A stretch of 40,255 nt of DNA from Phycisphaerales bacterium (GTDB lineage: Bacteria > Planctomycetota > Phycisphaerae > Phycisphaerales > SM1A02). Below the pieces are notes generated by a model, which was not told the DNA's origin, searched no databases, and worked only from the letters and a program-made list of their open reading frames with translations. The DNA lies in assembly GCA_022446795.1 (NCBI GenBank), contig JAKVBX010000019.1, positions 1 through 40,255 of the forward strand, in the 5' to 3' direction. The position numbers and the translations under genes were made by a program. Of the stretch, positions 6,771 to 15,725 are shown one piece after another (position 1 is the first letter of the stretch; each line of letters starts with the position of its first letter).

Positions 6771-7913
6771 CTACTCCTCGAATCGCTTCCAACCGTCACC
6801 GCCACCGGCGATCACGGCACCGATGAACTTGACCCCGCGGGCACCATCGTGCACCGTCGGATAGTCATGAGTCTCACCATCATCGCGGCCCGCCCGGATG
6901 GCGGCCGCGGCGCCACGGTAGATGTTCGCAAACGCTTCAATGAACGCCTCGGGATGCCCACCGGGCAGCCGCGTCACGGCCGTAGCCGCATCGCAGAGGC
7001 TGCCATCGGCCCGATGATGGATTCGATCAGGCCCCTCGAGCGAGGTTTGCGTCAAGGTATTCGGATCTTCCTGGTGCCAGCACAGGCCACCAGTACTGCC
7101 CCACACTCTCAACCGGAGATCGTTGAGGCAGCCGGGACAGACCTGCGAGGCCGTGAGAATGCCACGTCCGCCATTGTCGAACCTCAGCAGCACCGAGGTG
7201 TCATCATCGATGCTCCGGCCCTCGACATGAGTTGTCACATCGGAGGCGAACTCGGTAATCCCCAGGCCGGTGACATACGAAACGAGATTCTCCGCATGGG
7301 AACCGATGTCCCCCATGGCCCCTCCTGCCCCAGCGCGAGTGGGATCAGTCCGCCAGTCAGCCTGCTTCTGGCCACTGGCCTCCAGCGGCGTGGCCAACCA
7401 GCCCTGGTTGTACTCCACGATGACCTTGCGGACATCGCCGATGGCGCCACTGCGAACCAGGTGACGGGCTTCCTTGACCATGGGGTACCCGGTGTAGTTG
7501 TACGTCACCGCGAAGACCTTGCCGGTTCGTTCCTGCGTTGCCACGAGATCATCCGCCTCGGCCGCATTGAGCACCAGCGGTTTGTCACACACCACGTGGA
7601 AGCCGGCTTCCATCGCCGCTTTCGCGACGGAGTGGTGGACATGGTTGGGCGTCACGATCACGACCGCTTCCATCCGCTCCTCGGCTGGCCGTGCGGCCTC
7701 GGATTCAAGCATCGCCTCCCAGGTGGGATACGCCCGATCCTCCGGCAGTCCCAGGTCGGCTCCGCTGGCAATCGACTTCTCCGGCGTCGAGGACAGCGCG
7801 CCCGCAACCAGTTCCATGCTGCCATCCAGGGTTGCGGCCATGCGATGCACCGCGCCGATGAAGGCGTCGCGGCCCCCACCGACCATTCCCATGCGGACCG
7901 GTTGCTGGGCCAT
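6771..7913 (-). CDS. Gfo/Idh/MocA family NAD(P)-dependent oxidoreductase
   Basis: A 380-residue sugar or inositol dehydrogenase-type enzyme. The N-terminal Rossmann fold shows [16 protein letters not shown], followed by the nucleotide-binding [17 protein letters not shown] and the family's catalytic lysine motif CDKPLVL. The C-terminal alpha/beta domain contains [14 protein letters not shown], where the His is the likely active-site residue. ATG at 7913 overlaps the stop codon of the upstream isomerase gene by one base (TGATG); a GTG one codon earlier is less likely. The pairing with a TIM-barrel isomerase and a ThuA-DUF1080 protein suggests oxidation of a sugar hydroxyl to a keto group, or the reverse reaction, but the position oxidised cannot be read from sequence. 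Confidence 0.92.
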
Positions 7914-8932
7914 CACGCGGTCGCCTCAGCCGCCCGGTCACTGGAATAGGCATCCTCGAAGCCCGTCCCCGGCGGCGCAATCTCAACCGCCCGGACGTAA
8001 TCACAACTCTCGCGAGCTCCCTGCCGGCGGTCCATGGCACTGTCTTCCCATTCCACCGAGAGCGGGCCGTCATATCCCGCCCGGTTCAGGGCTCGAATGA
8101 TCTGGTCGAAGTCGACGTCGCCTCGTCCGACGCTCACGAAGTCCCAACCGCGGCGAGGATCGCCGAACTGGAAATGGGATCCCAGGATGCTGCGCTCGCC
8201 GTCCTGGATGATCCGGGTGTCCTTCATGTGGCAATGGAAGATCCGATCCGGGAAGCGGTCAATGAACTTGGCCGGATCGACGCCCTGCCAGATGAGGTGA
8301 CTGGGGTCGAAGTTGAAGCCGAAGGCCTCGTGGTGCCCCACGGCCTCCAGGGCCGCTTCAGCGGTGTAGATGTCATAGGCGATCTCGCTGGGATGGACTT
8401 CCAGCGCGAACTTCACGCCCTCTTCCTTGAACACGTCGAGGATCGGACCCCACCGGTTGGCGAAGTCGTCATAGCCACGCTGCACGTGATCGGGCGGTGT
8501 CGGCGGGAAGAAGTAGAGGTCGGGCCAGATCGATGATCCGGTGAACCCGTTGACGACGGGTACCCCGAGCTTGGCCGCGGCCCGTGCCGTGTTCTTCATC
8601 TCCTCGGCAGCCCGCTCGCGTACGCCCTCTGCATCCCCATGGCCCCACACGTGATCCGGGAGGATCTGGTGGTGGCGATGATCGATGCGGTCGCAGACCG
8701 CCTGTCCCACGAGGTGGCTGGACACCGCCCAGCACTTGAGGCCGTGGCTCGCCAGCAACTCGTGTCGCCCCTGGCAATAGGACTCGTCCTCCAGGGCCCG
8801 CCCCACGTCGAAGTGGTCCCCCCAGCAGGCCAGTTCCAGGCCGTCATAGCCCATGCCCGAGACCAACTCCGCCATCTCCGCCAGCGGCAGGTCCGCCCAC
8901 TGGCCCGTGAAAATCGTCACCGGTCGTGCCAT
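7913..8932 (-). CDS. Sugar phosphate isomerase/epimerase-like protein (AP-endonuclease family 2 TIM barrel)
   Basis: A 339-residue TIM-barrel protein of the xylose-isomerase-like superfamily. The expected metal ligands are visible: Glu178 (FALEVHPSE), Asp209 and His212 ([11 protein letters not shown]), His235 (HCHMKDTR) and Glu294 (SVEWED). The ATG at 8932 is preceded by GAGGAG at 7 bases, and the gene opens the operon that continues with the oxidoreductase (one-base overlap) and the ThuA-DUF1080 gene. The 84 bases upstream are shared with the divergent sugar kinase gene. Members of this family isomerise or epimerise sugars and inositols, and some act on keto-glycosides; the present substrate is unknown. 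Confidence 0.91.
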
Positions 8933-9016
8933 GATTCAACTCCTCTCAAGTTGTGGCATGCTACCGGACCGGCCCCGATCACGGCGTCGGCCGCTAGGCT
9001 GGAGGAGGGAGGGCCC

Positions 9017-10525
9017 ATGACCGACAGACCTCACGTCCTGGGAATCGACATCGGCACCAGCGGTGCCCGCGTCCTCGTCGTGGACCACGCCAGCGGCGAG
9101 GTGATCCGAACGGCCACCAGCGAGTACGGAAGCATCTCACCCCATGCCGGGTGGTCCGAACAACAGCCGCGGGACTGGTGGAGCGGGTGCTGTTCCGCGA
9201 TCCGACAGGCCCTTGCGGGAAGCGAGATCTCAGGCGAGTCCATTGCGGCCATCGGGCTCAGTGGCCAGATGCACGGCCTCGTTCTGATGGATGACAACGA
9301 CAGCGTGCTTCGACCTGCGATCCTGTGGAACGATCAACGCACGGCGGACGAATGCGAGTTGATGCACGAGACCATCGGCCTGCAGAGGCTCATCGAGATC
9401 ACCGGGAAGCCCGCGATGACCGGCTTCACGGCCCCGAAGATTCTCTGGGTCAAGCGTCACGAGCCCAAGATCTATGCCCGCAGCCGACACGTGCTGTTGC
9501 CCAAGGACTATGTTCGCTGGTGCCTCAGCGGCGTGCATTCAATCGATGTTGCCGATGCCTCGGGAACGTCGCTGCTGGACCTGGAACAGCGTGACTGGTC
9601 CAACGAACTTGTCTCTGGACTGGACCTGGACGCTCAATGGCTCCCGCCCGTGGCCGAGTCCGTCGATGTCACCGCCGAGGTCTCCCGTAGCGCCGCCGCC
9701 GAGACCGGTCTCCGCCCTGGAACGCCCATCGTCGCCGGTGCAGGCGACCAGGCTGCCGGAGGAATCGGCTGCGGAATCGGAGACGAATCGGTGATCTCCC
9801 TGAATCTCGGCACCTCCGGCGTGGTCTTTGCCGCCCGGGATGCTCGCCCGCATGATCCCAGTGGTGCCCTCCATGCCTACTGCCATGCCATGCCGGGAAC
9901 CTGGCATGTGATGGGCGTCATGCTCAGCGCCGGCGGCAGCCTGCGGTGGTACCGCGATACCTTCGAAGGCGCTGAAGCCTCGGCCTACGACCGCATCATC
10001 CAGGGCGCCCGGGGCGTCTCACCAGGATGCGATGGACTGAGCTTCCTGCCCTATCTCACGGGCGAGCGAACACCGCATGCCGATCCACACGCCCGCGGCG
10101 CCTTCACCGGCATCTCCAACCAGCATGAACGCGGTCACTTTGCGAGAGCCGTCCTGGAGGGCGTGCTGTTCGGACTCCGGGATGGACTCGACCTGGTCCA
10201 GGCCGATGGCCAGGCCGTCGACCGCATCCGAATGACTGGCGGTGGCGCCCGCAGCGACTTCTGGCGACAGATGGCCGCGGACGTCTTCGACCTGCCGATC
10301 TACACGGTCAATGTCACCGACGGATCCGCCTACGGCGCCGCCCTGCTGGCGCTCGTGGGCAGCGGTCACTTCCCGGACATCACGGAAGCGATGAAGACCT
10401 GCGTCCGGGAGACCGGTGAAACAACGCCCTCGCCCGACGCACGAGTCTATGGAGACATCCACGCGGCCTGGCGTGATCTCTACCCCGCGCTGGCGCCGAC
10501 GTTCACCCGGCACGACGACTCCTGA
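9017..10525 (+). CDS. xylB: Xylulokinase-like FGGY carbohydrate kinase
   Basis: A 502-residue kinase, close in length to E. coli XylB (484). It shows the FGGY N-terminal phosphate-binding stretch LGIDIGTSGARVLVVD, the sugar-binding region GLSGQMHGLV with ILWNDQRT, the catalytic-base motif GAGDQAAGGIG, and the C-terminal ATP-binding MTGGGARSDFWRQMAADVF. It probably phosphorylates D-xylulose with ATP in the cytoplasm, feeding the pentose phosphate pathway, although a related ketose is possible. ATG at 9017 follows a purine-rich GGAGGAGGGAGGG. It is divergent from the isomerase operon, so the two may share control. Its stop lies one base from the stop of the facing gene at 10527. Confidence 0.92.
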   Translation: MTDRPHVLGIDIGTSGARVLVVDHASGEVIRTATSEYGSISPHAGWSEQQPRDWWSGCCSAIRQALAGSEISGESIAAIGLSGQMHGLVLMDDNDSVLRPAILWNDQRTADECELMHETIGLQRLIEITGKPAMTGFTAPKILWVKRHEPKIYARSRHVLLPKDYVRWCLSGVHSIDVADASGTSLLDLEQRDWSNELVSGLDLDAQWLPPVAESVDVTAEVSRSAAAETGLRPGTPIVAGAGDQAAGGIGCGIGDESVISLNLGTSGVVFAARDARPHDPSGALHAYCHAMPGTWHVMGVMLSAGGSLRWYRDTFEGAEASAYDRIIQGARGVSPGCDGLSFLPYLTGERTPHADPHARGAFTGISNQHERGHFARAVLEGVLFGLRDGLDLVQADGQAVDRIRMTGGGARSDFWRQMAADVFDLPIYTVNVTDGSAYGAALLALVGSGHFPDITEAMKTCVRETGETTPSPDARVYGDIHAAWRDLYPALAPTFTRHDDS

Positions 10526-10526
10526 G

Positions 10527-11429
10527 TCAGTCGAGGACCGGCTCCGCCTCGGCCGCCACGCACTCATCAAACAGACCCGACAGCCGCCTGGTCATGGGCC
10601 CGATATCCCCCGTCCCGATCGTACGCCCATCGATCTCGACGACCGGCGCCAACTCGCCCATCGTTCCGGTGCAGAAGACCTCGTCCGCGCCGTAGGCGTG
10701 ATCAAGTTCCAGGTCGGCCTCGCGGCAGTCGATGCCCTCACGGCGACAGAGATCCAGCACGACCGATCGCGTGACCCCCTCGGGACAGGCCACCAGGAAA
10801 GACGTCGACACCGTCTCCCCATGAACGAAGAACAGGTGGGTGGCATTGGTCTCGGCGATGAAGCCCCGGGCATCCAGCATCAGGGCGTCATCGGCGCCCG
10901 CACCATTGGCCTCGATCTTCGCCATGATCGACTGCAGCAGGTTGCAGGAGTGGATCTGCTGGTTGAGCTGATCCGGTGAGAAACGGCGGATCGAACTCGT
11001 TGCCAGCTTCAGCCCCGTCTTGTCGTAGACCGGTGGCTTGTGCTCCGCCAGGACAATGAGCGTCGGCCCCGAGGTGTTCAACCGGGGGTCCATGCCACTG
11101 GTGACCTTCAACCCACGCGTCAACGTCAGCCGGATGTGCACGCCGTCACGCATGCCATTGGCTTCCAGCGTGCGCTTGACCTCCTGCATGATGTGCTCGT
11201 GGGACGGGATCTCCGCAAACGAGACCCACTCGGCGGATTTTCGGAGCCGATCCAGGTGCTGACGGAAGCGGAAGATCCGACCGTCGTAGACCCGCAGTCC
11301 CTCCCACACGGCATCGCCGCCCTGGACCACCGAGTCGAACGGGCTGATCCCCGCCTCGTCCCGGTGGCGGAGGTCACCATTGATGTTGATCAGGAGATCA
11401 CGATTGCGTTCATCGAATTGCTGCAGCAC
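10527..11429 (-). CDS. Class IV aminotransferase-like protein (BCAT/DAAT fold) with His at the PLP-lysine position
   Basis: A 300-residue protein with the class IV PLP fold. It has the N-terminal stretch ISPFDSVVQGGDAVWEGLRV, the pyridine-contacting Glu193 in GFIAETNATHLFF, the phosphate-binding GVTR (218-221), and a C-terminal GADEVFCTGTMGELAPVV like IlvE. By comparison with D-amino acid aminotransferase (IKSLNLL) and PabC (LKHLNRL), the Schiff-base lysine should sit three residues before the Asn of HSCNLL, but position 160 is His (codon CAC). A nearby Lys171 (MAKIEAN) aligns with a non-catalytic lysine of the family. It may therefore not be a standard branched-chain aminotransferase. The start is GTG, with a TGAGGTGA ribosome site 4 bases upstream; the gap to the upstream sulfotransferase gene is 8 bases, so the two are co-transcribed. 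Confidence 0.88.
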   Translation of the reverse strand: MLQQFDERNRDLLININGDLRHRDEAGISPFDSVVQGGDAVWEGLRVYDGRIFRFRQHLDRLRKSAEWVSFAEIPSHEHIMQEVKRTLEANGMRDGVHIRLTLTRGLKVTSGMDPRLNTSGPTLIVLAEHKPPVYDKTGLKLATSSIRRFSPDQLNQQIHSCNLLQSIMAKIEANGAGADDALMLDARGFIAETNATHLFFVHGETVSTSFLVACPEGVTRSVVLDLCRREGIDCREADLELDHAYGADEVFCTGTMGELAPVVEIDGRTIGTGDIGPMTRRLSGLFDECVAAEAEPVLD

Positions 11430-11437
11430 GGTTCACC

Positions 11438-12169
11438 TCAAGCCACGATCCGATGGACGTGGAGTTGATCGTAGAGGGCCTGGCACTCCTCGTGGACCTC
11501 CACGAGATGCGTCGGCAGTTCGCCCTCGCGTGGTCGCCAGGTCTCGAAACCCGTCGAGGCCCGGACCGAGTCGTACCAGAAGTCCGCCCAGGCCCCGTCA
11601 CTGTCGCGCGACCCGCTGGGCCAGGACAACATGGCCTCGTCAAAATCGAGTTGGAGGACATCGCACAGGGACGCCAGGGTCCCGCGTGGATTCTCCAGGA
11701 CATCGCGGGCCACCACCACGGGCGGTGTCTCCCCCGCTTCCCGACAGCGTTGGAAGATCTCCACCTGCTGGGGCATGCCGGTGTCGGCCAGCCCCATCTC
11801 CGGGTATCGCGCATGCAGCGAGAGAATCATCTCCCGCGGATCACGAAGGAGAAAGGCGTGGGTCACGGTCGCGTCGTCCATCCACGCCCGATCCATCCCG
11901 GGCAGCAGGTGATGGGCCATGTGCTTCTGGTAGACGACCGGCGAGTCGGGCGCCTGGACCAGTCGCGTGGCCACCGCCTCGTACGGAATCTCATGGGCAT
12001 GCGCCTGCAGGACATGATCCCGCCCGGGATGCGACAGCCCGGTCTGGTCCAGGTAGCACGCGTACAGCGGCTCATCCCAGACCGTGGTATCGGCTCGGTT
12101 CTCCCACGCTCGCATCATGGCCGTGGAGATGTTCCGAGGCCCGGACCACATGGCAATGACTCGGCCCAT
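11438..12169 (-). CDS. Small PAPS-type sulfotransferase-like protein
   Basis: A 243-residue P-loop protein of the sulfotransferase superfamily. Near the N-terminus WSGPRNISTAMMRAW fits the 5'-phosphosulfate-binding loop, with Arg in place of the usual Lys, followed by DEPLYACYL. In the middle FLLRDPREMILSL fits the 3'-phosphate-binding motif. No signal peptide is seen, so it acts in the cytoplasm. ATG at 12169 overlaps the stop of the permease gene by one base (TGATG), with AGGGG upstream; a GTG at 12187 is the alternative. From memory, plants encode proteins that fuse this kind of domain to the aminotransferase-like protein encoded next door, which would support a joint function. The acceptor that is sulfonated, if any, is unknown. 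Confidence 0.82.
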   Translation of the reverse strand: MGRVIAMWSGPRNISTAMMRAWENRADTTVWDEPLYACYLDQTGLSHPGRDHVLQAHAHEIPYEAVATRLVQAPDSPVVYQKHMAHHLLPGMDRAWMDDATVTHAFLLRDPREMILSLHARYPEMGLADTGMPQQVEIFQRCREAGETPPVVVARDVLENPRGTLASLCDVLQLDFDEAMLSWPSGSRDSDGAWADFWYDSVRASTGFETWRPREGELPTHLVEVHEECQALYDQLHVHRIVA

Positions 12170-13725
12170 CAGTCGCCCCTGATCCACCGCTTGCGTGTCT
12201 CTTCCGCCCGCGGAAGATCAGCATCCTTGCCCCAGGCCGGGTTGCGGCACTGGAAGAAGATGAACGGCAGGATCACCGTGACCGAGAAGCCGATCGCCAC
12301 GATGGGAATCAGCGTCGAGGCCGACATCTTGATCTCGATCTGCGACGGCGGGAAGAACCCGATCACGATTCCGCTCGCGCATCCCAGGAGGCCGACGCCA
12401 CCGACGATCAGGACACCAGGCAGTCCACCCGGAATTCGGAACGGGCGTTTCACGTTCGGCTGACTGATTCGAAGTCGAATCAGCGAGATGAACATCAACC
12501 CGTACATCACGAGGTAGATCTGGGCGGAGATGATCGTCAGGATGTAGAACACCCGGTTCATGTCCAGCACCAGGTTCAACAGGCAGATCAGGGAGACGAC
12601 CACCGCCTGCACCAGCATGACGTTCCGTGGTGCACCGCCGGAGGTTGTTCGCTGGAAGACCGGTGGAATGACCCCGTCATCGGCCGCTACTCGAAGCGAC
12701 TCGGTCGGCCCAATGACCCAGACCATGATGTGACCGATCATCCCGAACAGGGCGAGGAAGGCGATCACCGGCAACAACCACTCGATCCCCAGCGGGCCAA
12801 AGACCTTCTGGAAGACCTGCAACGTACCGGCCGTGAGGTCCATCTCGTCCAGCGGCACCAGGACCGCCACGCTCAAGGCTCCGAGGATCGAGATCACCAG
12901 GATCAGCACCCCGGAGATGAGCAGGGCCAGCGGAATGGACCGCTGGATGTTCCGGACCCGTCGGAAGTGAACCGCATTCACTTCCAGGCCCGACAGGAAC
13001 GAGAACACCGCCACCGCCGCGACCAGGGCACCGAAGGTCGACACCGTGGAGGTCGACTCCTTGGCACCAGTCTGGGTTGGCGTGAAGTCGAACAAGGCGT
13101 CCCAGGTCAAGGGCACGTAGCTCTCGTTTCCGCTGGCAATCCACCAGATCGCAAACGCGATGGCCAGGAGCACCGGGATGAACGTCCCGGCGTACAGGAA
13201 GATGGTCGTGATGAGACCGCTGAAATGCAGGCCGCGGAAGTTGACCAGGGTGGCGGCCCAGAACACGATCAGCAGGATCGGCAGCGTGAACCAGACGTAG
13301 TTCTCGTACTCGGGGTTGAACATGTAGGCGATCGATGTCGCACAGAGCGCCAGGACCGTCGGGTACCAGACCACGATCTGGACCCACTGGCACCAGATGC
13401 CCACGAAGGCCATCCGCTGTCCGAGCGCCTCCTTGATCCAGTTGTAGACCCCGCCCTCAGCGGGCCATCCCCCACCCAGTTCGGCCGCCGTCAGCCCCAC
13501 CGGGAGGAAGAAGATCAGCGTGAAGAAGGCGTACAGGACAATCAGGCTGAGGCCATAGTTGCCCATGGTCGGCAGGCCTTCGAGGCCAACCACGACGGCC
13601 ACGTTCATCATCGCCAGGACGAAGAGCGAGAGCCGCTTGCCCGACAGTCCGCCGCCTGAATCTGTACCGGAGCCATGCACGGGATGAACAGTACCCGATC
13701 TGGAGCCTTCGCTGCCGAGGGGCAC
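12169..13725 (-). CDS. APC-superfamily amino acid permease
   Basis: About 518 residues with twelve or so hydrophobic segments. The first, after a polar leader of about 30 residues (LSLFVLAMMNVAVVVGLEGL), and the following GLTAAELGGGWPAEGGVYNWIKEAL are typical of APC transporters of the glutamate/GABA exchanger type. It probably imports or exchanges an amino acid or amine across the inner membrane. The start is uncertain: GTG at 13725 has a weak GGTGAAG upstream, and GTG at 13680 is an alternative that would leave more room for the divergent promoter. It is the first gene of the operon with the sulfotransferase and the aminotransferase-like gene, which hints that its substrate is the one they process. 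Confidence 0.88.
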   Translation of the reverse strand: MPLGSEGSRSGTVHPVHGSGTDSGGGLSGKRLSLFVLAMMNVAVVVGLEGLPTMGNYGLSLIVLYAFFTLIFFLPVGLTAAELGGGWPAEGGVYNWIKEALGQRMAFVGIWCQWVQIVVWYPTVLALCATSIAYMFNPEYENYVWFTLPILLIVFWAATLVNFRGLHFSGLITTIFLYAGTFIPVLLAIAFAIWWIASGNESYVPLTWDALFDFTPTQTGAKESTSTVSTFGALVAAVAVFSFLSGLEVNAVHFRRVRNIQRSIPLALLISGVLILVISILGALSVAVLVPLDEMDLTAGTLQVFQKVFGPLGIEWLLPVIAFLALFGMIGHIMVWVIGPTESLRVAADDGVIPPVFQRTTSGGAPRNVMLVQAVVVSLICLLNLVLDMNRVFYILTIISAQIYLVMYGLMFISLIRLRISQPNVKRPFRIPGGLPGVLIVGGVGLLGCASGIVIGFFPPSQIEIKMSASTLIPIVAIGFSVTVILPFIFFQCRNPAWGKDADLPRAEETRKRWIRGD

Positions 13726-13762
13726 TACACTTCACCGCCACCCGCAACCGATGGAGCCCGTC

Positions 13763-14338
13763 ATGACCCCACGTATCCTCGCGTTCAGCGGCAGCCTCCG
13801 CCGCAACTCCTGGAACCAGAAACTCGTCGAGATCGCGGCCCAGGGCGCCCGGGATGCCGGTGCGGAGGTCACGCTGATCCACCTCGCGGACTACCCGCTG
13901 CCGGTCTACAACGAGGACCTGGAGGCCGAGGATGGCCTGCCGAGTCAGGCCACCGAACTGAAGGACCTCTTCCGGGCCCACCAGGGACTCCTGATCGCCT
14001 CACCGGAGTACAACAGCTCCGTGACCGCAGCGCTCAAGAACACCATTGACTGGATTTCCCGACCGCAGGAAGACTGCCCACCACTGGATTGCTATGACGG
14101 CAAGATCGCCGGGCTGATGGCGACCTCGCCGGGAGCACTCGGCGGATTGCGTGGCCTCGGTCCGATTCGCTCGATCCTCGGCAACATCAAGGTCACCGTG
14201 CTCCCCCGGCAGGTGGCGCTGCCACGATGCCATGAAGCCCTGGCGGAACCTGGACGCATCACGCCCGACGCCCTGCATGAGCAGGTTCTCCTGGTCGGGG
14301 CCGAGGTGGCTGAAGCCGCCCGCCGAATGCACCTGTGA
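13763..14338 (+). CDS. NAD(P)H-dependent FMN reductase family protein
   Basis: A 191-residue flavodoxin-fold protein. FSGSLRRNSWNQKL is the FMN phosphate-binding loop and ASPEYNSSVTAALKNTIDW is the characteristic second FMN-binding motif of the SsuE/ChrR/azoreductase-like family. It reduces FMN or small quinone and metal substrates with NAD(P)H in the cytoplasm. ATG at 13763 is preferred because GGAG lies 6 bases upstream, while the in-frame ATG at 13751 lacks a ribosome site. It is divergent from the permease, and its stop codon directly abuts the stop of the facing sufE-like gene, with no bases between. Confidence 0.91.
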   Translation: MTPRILAFSGSLRRNSWNQKLVEIAAQGARDAGAEVTLIHLADYPLPVYNEDLEAEDGLPSQATELKDLFRAHQGLLIASPEYNSSVTAALKNTIDWISRPQEDCPPLDCYDGKIAGLMATSPGALGGLRGLGPIRSILGNIKVTVLPRQVALPRCHEALAEPGRITPDALHEQVLLVGAEVAEAARRMHL

Positions 14339-14773
14339 CTACGCCGCGGCCAGTGCCGCCGCCCGCGACCGCACCTGACGAACCATGCCGTGCAGACCAT
14401 TGCTGCGTGTCGGGCTCAGGTGTTCATGCAGGCCAAGTGCGCTGAACTGAGCCTCCAAGTCACAGGTTGCGATCTCGGCCGCTGTGCGCCCCGACAACAT
14501 GATGATCACCATCGCGGCGAGGCCCTTGACCAGGTCCGAGTCGCTGTGCGCCCGCAGGCGTACCGGCGCCTCCGGGCCATCCGGTGATTCCGCTGATACC
14601 CAGACCGTGCTCTGGCACCCGTGAACCAGGTTCTCCTCGACCTGCTCCGACTCGGGCATCGGAGGGAGCTTCCGGCCCAGGTCCATGATGAACCGATACC
14701 GGTCCTCCCAGTCCTCGAGGAACTCGAAGGCCTCGTTCAATTGCGACAGGCTCATCGGTGCAGATTCGGTCAC
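14339..14773 (-). CDS. sufE: SufE-family cysteine desulfurase activator
   Basis: A 144-residue SufE-like protein. The conserved sulfur-accepting cysteine is Cys53 in NLVHGCQSTVWV, matching Cys51 of E. coli SufE, and the helix SDSDLVKGLAAMVIIMLSG is also typical. It takes persulfide sulfur from a SufS-type desulfurase and passes it to Fe-S cluster assembly. GTG at 14773 overlaps the stop of the upstream molybdopterin gene by four bases (GTGA); ATG at 14755 is an alternative start. No other suf gene is in the window, so this copy is separated from its expected partners. Confidence 0.92.
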   Translation of the reverse strand: MTESAPMSLSQLNEAFEFLEDWEDRYRFIMDLGRKLPPMPESEQVEENLVHGCQSTVWVSAESPDGPEAPVRLRAHSDSDLVKGLAAMVIIMLSGRTAAEIATCDLEAQFSALGLHEHLSPTRSNGLHGMVRQVRSRAAALAAA

Positions 14774-15309
14774 GGCTTCATTGTAGCGCCGGGCCGGAAA
14801 GCCACCAACCGATCAGGGTTGGTTTCCAACCGTGGCCCGCCGATCAGGTCCAGGCAGTACGGCACCGCGGCAAAGACCGCGTCCAGGCATTCCCCGATCG
14901 CCGCGGGCTTCCCGGGCAGGTTGATGATCAACGTCGATCCACGGGTCCCAGCCAGTTGCCGGGACAGGATGGCCGTCGGCACGGATTTGAGCGACTCGGT
15001 CCGCATCAACTCACCGAACCCGGGCAGGATTCGCTGGCAGACCGCCTCGGTCGCCTCGGGTGTGACATCACGTGGTGCGGGTCCGGTCCCCCCGGTCGTC
15101 ACGACCAGGCCACAGCCCACGTCGTCGCACAGTTCCCTGAGAACCGACTCGATCAGTGGTTGCTCATCCGGAACCACCCGACCCACGGCTCGCCATGAAC
15201 TGGACAGGACCTCGTTGAGCCACTGCTCGATGGCCGGACCGCCGCGGTCCTCGTATTCCCCACGATGGGCCCGGTCGGATACGGTGACAATGCCAATATC
15301 AGCAGTCAT
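14770..15309 (-). CDS. mog: Molybdopterin adenylyltransferase (MogA/MoaB family)
   Basis: A 179-residue protein of the MoCF-biosynthesis family. GIVTVSDRAHRGEYEDRGGP near the N-terminus and VVTTGGTGPAPRDVTPEAT in the middle are the nucleotide and molybdopterin-binding motifs; TLIINLPGKPAAIGECLDAV closes the domain. It activates molybdopterin by adenylylation before metal insertion. ATG at 15309 is chosen as the first start that keeps the family's N-terminus; ATG at 15318 is possible, and neither has a strong ribosome site. It lies 26 bases from the divergent RidA-like gene and overlaps the sufE-like gene by four bases. No molybdoenzyme gene is visible nearby. Confidence 0.9.
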   Translation of the reverse strand: MTADIGIVTVSDRAHRGEYEDRGGPAIEQWLNEVLSSSWRAVGRVVPDEQPLIESVLRELCDDVGCGLVVTTGGTGPAPRDVTPEATEAVCQRILPGFGELMRTESLKSVPTAILSRQLAGTRGSTLIINLPGKPAAIGECLDAVFAAVPYCLDLIGGPRLETNPDRLVAFRPGATMKP

Positions 15310-15335
15310 GACCACCATGCTACCGGAGTCCCACC

Positions 15336-15725
15336 ATGACGCGCCAGAACATCTCCAGCGGAGCACCCTGGGAAGTCCAGTTCGGGTACTCCCGTGCCGT
15401 CCGGATCAAGGACCGCATCATCGTTTCGGGCACGATTGCCGTGGATGAGGCCGGGCGCCTGCTGTATCCGGACGACCCCGCGGGACAGGTCGGCGTGGTG
15501 TTCGATCGCATTGAGACGGCCATCCGATCCGCGGGCGGCACGCTCCAGGATGTCGTGAGCCTGCGGATCTACATCACCAGGATGGAGGACGCGGAGACCA
15601 TCGGGCACGCATTCAAGCAACGGCTTGGCAACATCAACCCAGTCGCGACCATGGTTGCCGTCGCCGCCCTCTTCGCGGATGCACGTGTCGAAATCGAGGC
15701 GGAGGCTGCGGTGCCAAGCGCCTGA
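15336..15725 (+). CDS. RidA/YjgF family protein
   Basis: A 129-residue RidA-like protein, the usual family length. The core reads KDRIIVSGTIAVDE, then DVVSLRIYITRMEDAETIG and NPVATMVAVAALFADARVEIE. RidA proteins hydrolyse reactive enamine or imine intermediates released by PLP enzymes. This branch (SLRIYITRM, no arginine at the classical RidA Arg105-type position that I can identify) may have another activity. The ATG has no clear ribosome site. Its 3' end lies 10 bases from the stop of typA, which faces it. Confidence 0.88.
   Translation: MTRQNISSGAPWEVQFGYSRAVRIKDRIIVSGTIAVDEAGRLLYPDDPAGQVGVVFDRIETAIRSAGGTLQDVVSLRIYITRMEDAETIGHAFKQRLGNINPVATMVAVAALFADARVEIEAEAAVPSA

Follow-up and report, generated by a model that had tools for sequence, protein, structure and literature searches.

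What brings an amino acid permease, a sulfotransferase and a protein resembling a branched-chain aminotransferase (BCAT) together in one bacterial operon? The question was raised by a 40,255-nucleotide stretch of DNA from a Phycisphaerales bacterium (GenBank assembly GCA_022446795.1, contig JAKVBX010000019.1, positions 1 to 40,255), hereafter the window, and by a preliminary description of it, which had read the three genes as one operon and, provided that plants fuse the last two domains, the link between these two as functional and ancient. In this study, we analysed the sulfotransferase (ST; Pfam Sulfotransfer_5) and the class IV aminotransferase homologue (AT) in the window, in related loci of public genomes and in genome samples. 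The results showed that ST and AT occur together across several phyla and almost never apart, and they probably constitute one two-part enzyme system, whose AT lacks the lysine that binds pyridoxal phosphate (PLP) in ordinary relatives.

Co-occurrence of ST and AT

Three slightly overlapping samples of 149, 200 and 151 genomes were searched with the ST family and an AT alignment of 39 rows (A2). Taken together, they contained 77 entries with both genes, 2 with ST but without a full AT, each having ST near a contig end, and none (0) with AT alone. In the window's phylum (149 genomes), ST was present in 21 genomes and a high-scoring AT in 20, all within the 21; the AT of the 21st (G117) is cut by a contig end. 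AT scores in this sample were bimodal, with 380-482 bits in the 20 and no more than 289 bits for the other matches listed, and 10 of 10 genes fetched from the low-scoring group retained the PLP lysine. AT or its truncated start was located within 1.5 kb of ST in 17 of the 21 genomes. The distance was 2-3 kb within one contig in G027 and G035, and the two genes were on different contigs in G045 and G074.

The other samples displayed the same pattern. ST and AT were found in the same 11 of 200 genomes from the phylum of an Arenimonas locus (L060; Pseudomonadota). The window's order (151 genomes; at least four positive genomes, G000, G034, G077 and G095, are shared with the phylum sample) had ST in 47 genomes, and 46 of these, but no other genome, had AT (at least 388 bits). 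In the one ST genome left over, G404, ST is less than 600 bases from a contig end and the AT match reaches only 273 bits. The two genes lie on the same strand, at most 372 bases apart and with ST first, in 38 of these 46 genomes; they are not adjacent in the other eight (G383, G402, G418, G430, G433, G442, G469 and G490), and in G430 they are separated by ~168 kb on a single contig. Presence and absence were also joint within genera: of genus g137, G428 and G455 carry both genes, and G440, G506 and G512 carry none; of genus g2, four genomes carry both and G002 none. In addition, 194 genomes from the phylum of L066 (Verrucomicrobiota), searched for AT only, yielded AT in 5, with ST beside it in 5/5.

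Loci were further collected by a scan of public genomes with ST, which gave 260 related stretches; the 80 best were retained, and contig ends truncate some of these. In 69 of the 80, ST has an AT on its own strand. The remaining 11 have no AT in the flank, and 9 of these 11 genomes carry elsewhere an AT of one of the two types described next. According to the residue at the position of the PLP lysine, AT falls into a histidine type (H type) and an asparagine type (N type); the type was not readable in 2 of the 69 loci, which are fragments. ST precedes AT in all 19 H-type loci, and AT precedes ST in all 48 N-type loci, with median gaps of 8 and 11 bases, respectively; wider gaps were seen in L048 (~4.4 kb) and L042 (~0.3 kb). 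A rearranged pair, with an N-type AT and ST first, was observed in L165 (1498-3127; G200, from another sample).

ST and AT trees were built by a quick method with Shimodaira-Hasegawa-like approximate likelihood ratio (SH-aLRT) support only. In the AT tree (85 rows, 9 of them with Lys), the H, N and Lys groups each occupied one side of a branch (support 98, 99 and 100). The ST tree, in which 77 of 81 rows could be labelled by partner type, separated the partners of H- and N-type ATs with one change at a support of 93, under the starred level. Both trees are thus split along the His/Asn line, which fits co-inheritance of the pair.

Since no third gene recurs beside the pair, as judged by open reading frame (ORF) clustering of the 80 loci and by a Pfam scan of neighbours, ST and AT form a stand-alone two-gene module. 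Only the permease and a cyclophilin recurred in the Pfam scan of H-type loci, each in 2 of the 53 ORFs covered; the other 20 of 73, mostly from near-duplicate loci or doubtful calls, were omitted. Neighbouring ORFs came from a home-made gene caller, and some gene calls are doubtful and operon calls rough. In two Gammaproteobacteria (L014, 8821-11154; L018, 8678-11062), the pair is followed by a protein whose start resembles, by eye, the large subunit of xanthine dehydrogenase/aldehyde oxidase.

These findings bear directly on the preliminary description. Its one-strand, three-gene operon was confirmed (span 13725-10527) by the permease/ST overlap, by the gap of only 8 bases that separates ST from AT (11437-11430) and by the Pfam matches. 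The functional link that it had proposed was borne out by the same-strand neighbours and by the genome co-occurrence, and the link is apparently old, in line with the suggested antiquity. It had also named rare neighbourhood in other genomes as a sign of chance; the link came through strongly in the samples taken from the phyla of the window, L060 and L066. We consider ST and AT to be, very probably, an obligate functional pair.

The missing lysine and the remaining cleft of AT

AT of the window matches Pfam Aminotran_4 (156.9 bits, 9.6e-46; cut-off 28.5), and it scored below cut-off against every NCBIfam model listed for BCAT, D-amino-acid transaminase and aminodeoxychorismate lyase (best 240.4 bits vs 363). 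An AlphaFold2 model (mean predicted local distance difference test score, pLDDT, 86.0) gave Foldseek matches of 4.9e-34 to 7z79, the best, and 8.1e-32 to BCAT 5mqz. At the position of the PLP Schiff-base lysine, residue 160, the window has histidine. Among 68 aligned ATs (67 from the 80 loci, plus that of the window itself), this position was Asn in 48, His in 20 and Lys in none. Further sets, which may repeat a few genomes, gave His 19, Asn 1 and no Lys for the 20 ATs of the phylum sample, His 4 and Asn 5 for nine ATs located away from their ST, and Asn 11 and His 5 for another 16. All 14 ordinary relatives in the alignment retained the lysine, as did 13 ordinary relatives fetched from genomes and the two further Aminotran_4 genes that the window's genome contains. 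Judged from the alignment, an internal aldimine is not possible in the normal way at position 160. Because the Schiff-base lysine is lost, AT is not an ordinary transaminase; the ordinary PLP transaminase chemistry first envisaged for it is not supported, and "branched-chain aminotransferase" would be a misleading name.

The phosphate cup and the carboxylate arginine have been conserved. R61, T220 and T256 are invariant in alignment A2, and R46, the counterpart of the alpha-carboxylate arginine R40, is invariant too. In E. coli BCAT, R59, T221 and T257 bind the phosphate and R40 the alpha-carboxylate, while F36 and Y164 contact the PLP ring side and Y31 lies in the O-pocket (PMC8320979, Table 2). 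Where 14 ordinary sequences have Phe, Tyr, Gly and Asn, the H and N types have W42, H98, K108 and D186, respectively, and they lack Tyr at 37 and at 164; the position of E. coli Y164, on the phenolic side of PLP, is Leu in the window and mostly in the H type, and mostly Lys in the N type. Another lysine may stand in for the lost one, and the H and N types both conserve K108 and K131; Lys108 appears to lie near the start of the O-pocket loop, as that loop is given for E. coli BCAT in Table 2 of PMC8320979. The glutamate that meets the PLP ring nitrogen is present in the window (E193) and in the H type. The cleft therefore still looks built for a ligand bearing a phosphate and a carboxylate.

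Sulfotransferase features

ST matches Sulfotransfer_5 with 170.9 bits (3.5e-50; cut-off 23.2; the scan omitted the first two residues), and in the literature passages retrieved this model, PF19798, was named merely in lists of sulfotransferase models. Profile searches of the PDB gave CurM (1.4e-8) and an olefin synthase ST (1.4e-7) as the sole credible matches. The AlphaFold2 model (pLDDT 95.8) was compared using VIA-align, with Z 14.8 to the olefin synthase ST 4gox (217 residues, root-mean-square deviation 3.8), 14.5 to TPST1 (5wrj) and 14.4 to the CurM ST (4gbm); the olefin synthase ST, TPST1/2 and CurM matches spanned Z 13.7-14.8, and the next match had 12.0.

The motifs for 3'-phosphoadenosine 5'-phosphosulfate (PAPS) are conserved. 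W8, P11, R12, S15, T16 and A17, within what is presumably the 5'-phosphosulfate-binding (5'-PSB) loop, are identical across 46 sequences, as are R109 and S117, which bound a region aligning with CurM and the olefin synthase ST and presumably acting as the 3'-phosphate-binding (3'-PB) motif. E33, K82 and H87 are identical as well; by eye, E33 presumably corresponds to the catalytic Glu of TPST, and this was not used as evidence. Adenosine 5'-phosphosulfate (APS) kinase, which is required for PAPS, is encoded in the window's genome and in 8 of 9 other searched genomes carrying the pair. ST is predicted to transfer sulfonate from PAPS.

A second, distant Sulfotransfer_5 protein (80 bits, P-loop AVPRSTSTAF), apparently of another subfamily, was observed in L161 (G235, C1:2206226-2206849), with no AT match within the ~1.5 kb flank.

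The permease and the flanking genes

The preliminary description had counted the permease as a core member of the operon, which the loci do not support. The protein belongs to AA_permease_2 (212.6 bits, 1.3e-62; cut-off 27) and scores 384.6 and 369.1 bits against the nearest NCBIfam models, of GadC type, under their cut-offs of 650 and 640. It stands next to ST, directly before it, in 4 of the 80 other loci (L002, L003, L004 and L010), all titled Phycisphaerae or Phycisphaerales; it was not found beside ST in the remaining loci of the phylum sample (flanks of ~1.5 kb) or in 76 of the 80, some of which a contig end truncates. Confined to close kin, it was added to the pair in one lineage only and gives a weak hint of an amino-acid-like compound. 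L002 (8001-8726) and L003 (6532-7257) are on two contigs of one metagenome-assembled genome (NAT149) and show an identical permease-ST-AT arrangement; they are perhaps an assembly duplicate and therefore not independent.

The features of the operon are collected in Table 1. A longer ORF variant of ST, to 12187, begins at an upstream GTG. A promoter scan found none, and terminator-like matches were not used. PADLOC, consulted for a defence role, gave no match for ST or AT. Divergent from the operon is an NADPH-dependent FMN reductase-like gene (start 13751), followed by a SufE gene (14339-14773, within 13751-15366) and, by eye, a MoaB/MogA-like gene (~14770-15366). Directly downstream (6771-10525), the minus strand carries a Gfo/Idh/MocA oxidoreductase and a xylose-isomerase-like TIM-barrel protein; a sugar kinase, of FGGY-type look by eye, runs convergent to the operon on the plus strand inside ORF 8639-10525. 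Relatives of the sugar kinase and of the TIM-barrel gene occupy the same place in L002-L004.

Table 1. Operon features in the window, with positions in window numbering
Feature	Position	Strand	Basis
Permease, APC superfamily, GadC-like, 518 aa, first operon gene	12169..13725	-	Pfam AA_permease_2
ST, 243 aa, Pfam Sulfotransfer_5 (PF19798), ATG start	11438..12169	-	Pfam match
AT without PLP lysine, H type, 300 aa, GTG start	10527..11429	-	Pfam Aminotran_4
TGATG, permease stop and ST start sharing one base	12167..12171	-	Sequence
ST residues 8-19, WSGPRNISTAMM, presumed counterpart of the PAPS 5'-PSB loop	12113..12148	-	Conserved residues
ST R109 to S117, presumed counterpart of the PAPS 3'-PB motif	11819..11845	-	Conserved residues, alignment
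AT codon 160 (CAC, His), position of the PLP Schiff-base lysine	10950..10952	-	Alignment
AT codon 108, Lys in both AT types and Gly in 14/14 ordinary relatives	11106..11108	-	Alignment
AT R61, arginine of the PLP-phosphate cup, counterpart of R59 in E. coli BCAT	11247..11249	-	Conservation; PMC8320979, Table 2
AT T220, threonine of the PLP-phosphate cup, counterpart of T221 in E. coli BCAT	10770..10772	-	Conservation; PMC8320979, Table 2
AT T256, threonine of the PLP-phosphate cup, counterpart of T257 in E. coli BCAT	10662..10664	-	Conservation; PMC8320979, Table 2

Proposed function and alternatives

On balance, we lean slightly towards a two-component small-molecule sulfotransferase system, in which the partner AT would bind a ligand in a lysine-free cleft of PLP type. 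As AT keeps the phosphate cup and the carboxylate arginine, it most likely holds a ligand bearing both groups, for example an amino acid as an adduct of PLP or pyridoxamine phosphate (PMP), and it is rather likely that this cleft acts on the substrate or the product of ST. The two proteins would then act on one amino-acid-like compound, and in the window's lineage a permease joined the operon, presumably moving the substrate or the product. The likeliest chemistry for the pair would be sulfonate-then-eliminate, with ST sulfonating a substrate hydroxyl for activation and the His/Asn cleft of AT assisting a lysine-independent removal step, such as sulfate loss; even so, we regard this particular sequence of steps as doubtful. 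The operon, the co-occurrence, the PAPS-type motifs, the loss of the lysine and the conservation of the cleft are shown by the data, and the activity of ST, the ligand, a physical contact between the two proteins and the reaction are inferred from them, as is the sulfonation of an amino acid or amine suggested in the preliminary description. Still tentative is an undescribed two-protein enzyme, in which the AT cleft, with the help of PLP or PMP or without any cofactor, might carry out a reaction of its own on an amino-acid-derived substrate shared with ST.

Several points weigh against the two-component system with a ligand-binding AT. No recurrent third gene names the pathway. Fusions of ST and AT, which the preliminary description had ascribed to plants and proposed to look for across genomes, were found in none of the 80 loci. 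Among the genomes with no AT beside ST, G152 has only an ordinary Lys-bearing relative, its ST locus (L020) lying at a contig end, and G155 has ST and no AT at threshold; G168 (L064) showed no APS kinase. The N type has Thr or Ser in place of the ring-nitrogen Glu, so that any PLP-based mechanism is weakened for that half of the family. In fold, the ST model resembles TPST-like enzymes as closely as it does CurM (Z 14.5 vs 14.4-14.8), and the activation precedent is therefore only one of two. Finally, the odds of identical gene sets, ~1 in 10^24 (20 in 149) and ~1 in 10^17 (11 in 200) if genomes were independent, are made too strong by kinship, as the samples are phylogenetically non-independent, but the joint presence and absence within genera point in the same direction as these odds.

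Among the other explanations, the main rival is that AT is a pseudo-enzyme subunit, non-catalytic, which shapes or presents the acceptor for ST and whose old PLP site is structural or regulatory. We regard it as possible, if improbable, and it would account for several findings: the lysine is gone in all readable paired ATs and replaced by His or Asn, both versions pair with ST, the N type lacks the ring-nitrogen glutamate too, and the co-occurrence is obligate. Against a mere subunit, neither the residue that replaces the lysine nor the phosphate cup has drifted, both being invariant in the H type as in the N type, and a new lysine, Lys108, has become fixed in the region aligning with a cleft-side loop, which suggests a ligand-binding site under selection; unlinked pairs persist as well, but this is common for subunits too and hence not discriminating. 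Sequence data cannot choose between a lysine-free ligand cleft and a pseudo-enzyme subunit. Rather unlikely, in our view, is that ST and AT are two successive but separate pathway enzymes, AT being PLP- or PMP-dependent with His for Lys as in ColD. ColD, a fold type I dehydratase with such a replacement, shows that lysine-independent chemistry of this kind can exist, and nothing in the present analysis adds support to the parallel. The H type keeps an invariant His and Glu193, the phosphate cup and carboxylate Arg are retained, and relatives of ST activate hydroxyls for elimination, all of which would suit separate enzymes. The N type, however, with Asn and no Glu193, is equally tied to ST and strains a single PLP mechanism, and neither type has kept the Tyr that contacts PLP on its ring side (E. 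coli Y164).

The three-gene amino acid pathway, with import, PAPS-dependent sulfonation and transamination by AT, gains from the TGATG overlap of permease and ST and from the four other loci with the permease directly before ST, yet it is very improbable: the permease was not found in the large majority of loci, some of them truncated, AT has no transaminase lysine, and the window's genome holds two other Aminotran_4 genes with Lys. Hardly credible at all is a chance or inherited neighbourhood with no functional link. Part of the Phycisphaerae synteny is purely vertical, such as the SufE and MoaB-like genes common to L002-L004 and L010, but co-occurrence in three samples, joint presence and absence within genera with unlinked cases included, and the two gene orders of ST and AT refute chance as far as the samples reach.

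Pfam reads the pair only as a sulfotransferase and an aminotransferase. The tentative two-protein enzyme, if real, would be common to several bacterial phyla, and to plants too should the fusion ascribed to them be right; were the pathway also a fusion in plants, it would form an undescribed element of common metabolism, of sulfur as well as of amino acids.

Comparison with known systems

Literature searches found no paper describing an ST-AT pair. The BCAT-like proteins At3g05190 and At5g27410 of Arabidopsis probably carry an N-terminal sulfotransferase-like domain; no literature was found under these codes in the library searched. Two other candidate precedents were set aside: a cysteate/aminoacrylate sulfotransferase route was considered and left as unsupported, and the nucleocidin sulfamate clusters were dropped, the word "aminotransferase" being absent from the main text of PMC10946740 ("transaminase" was not searched).

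For ST, the fold of TPST1/2 is the same (Z 13.7-14.5) at an identity of just 14-16%. The TPSTs are protein-modifying animal enzymes, and we know of no AT partner for them. The ST domains of CurM and olefin synthase (4gbm and 4gox) are the best PDB profile matches and among the best folds. Passages of PMC3903477 state that they sulfonate a beta-hydroxyl as a leaving group, after which the thioesterase step loses CO2 and sulfate; the sulfonation is also stated in PMC10946740. These STs are polyketide synthase domains acting on carrier-bound chains, whereas ST of the window is free-standing, with 243 residues and an AT partner; neither a polyketide synthase domain nor a following thioesterase accompanies it, its neighbours being the permease and AT.

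The nearest solved relative of AT is 7z79, an "aminotransferase-like protein" of Variovorax paradoxus with 40% identity, which likewise lacks the PLP lysine. By alignment, it differs from AT of the window in having Asn for His and, at the ring-nitrogen position, Ser for Glu. Its closest relatives among the loci, L079 and L036 (66% identity; L036 is from Azospirillum sp. TSO22-1), lie directly before ST, which places 7z79 in the N type. 9j32 is the N174K mutant of the same protein, a substitution that points to depositors who were aware of the lost lysine. Searched by PDB code, neither 7z79 nor 9j32 led to a paper, and a search for Variovorax paradoxus and catalytic lysine returned other transaminases only. 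The tie to ST gives this lysine-less structure, unexplained in the literature found, a likely partner and a testable biochemistry. With the branched-chain and D-amino acid transaminases of fold type IV, AT shares the fold, the phosphate cup and the carboxylate arginine; it departs from them in that the Schiff-base Lys has been lost, the counterparts of Y164, F36 and Y31 and the Tyr at 98 have been replaced, and Lys108 has been added.

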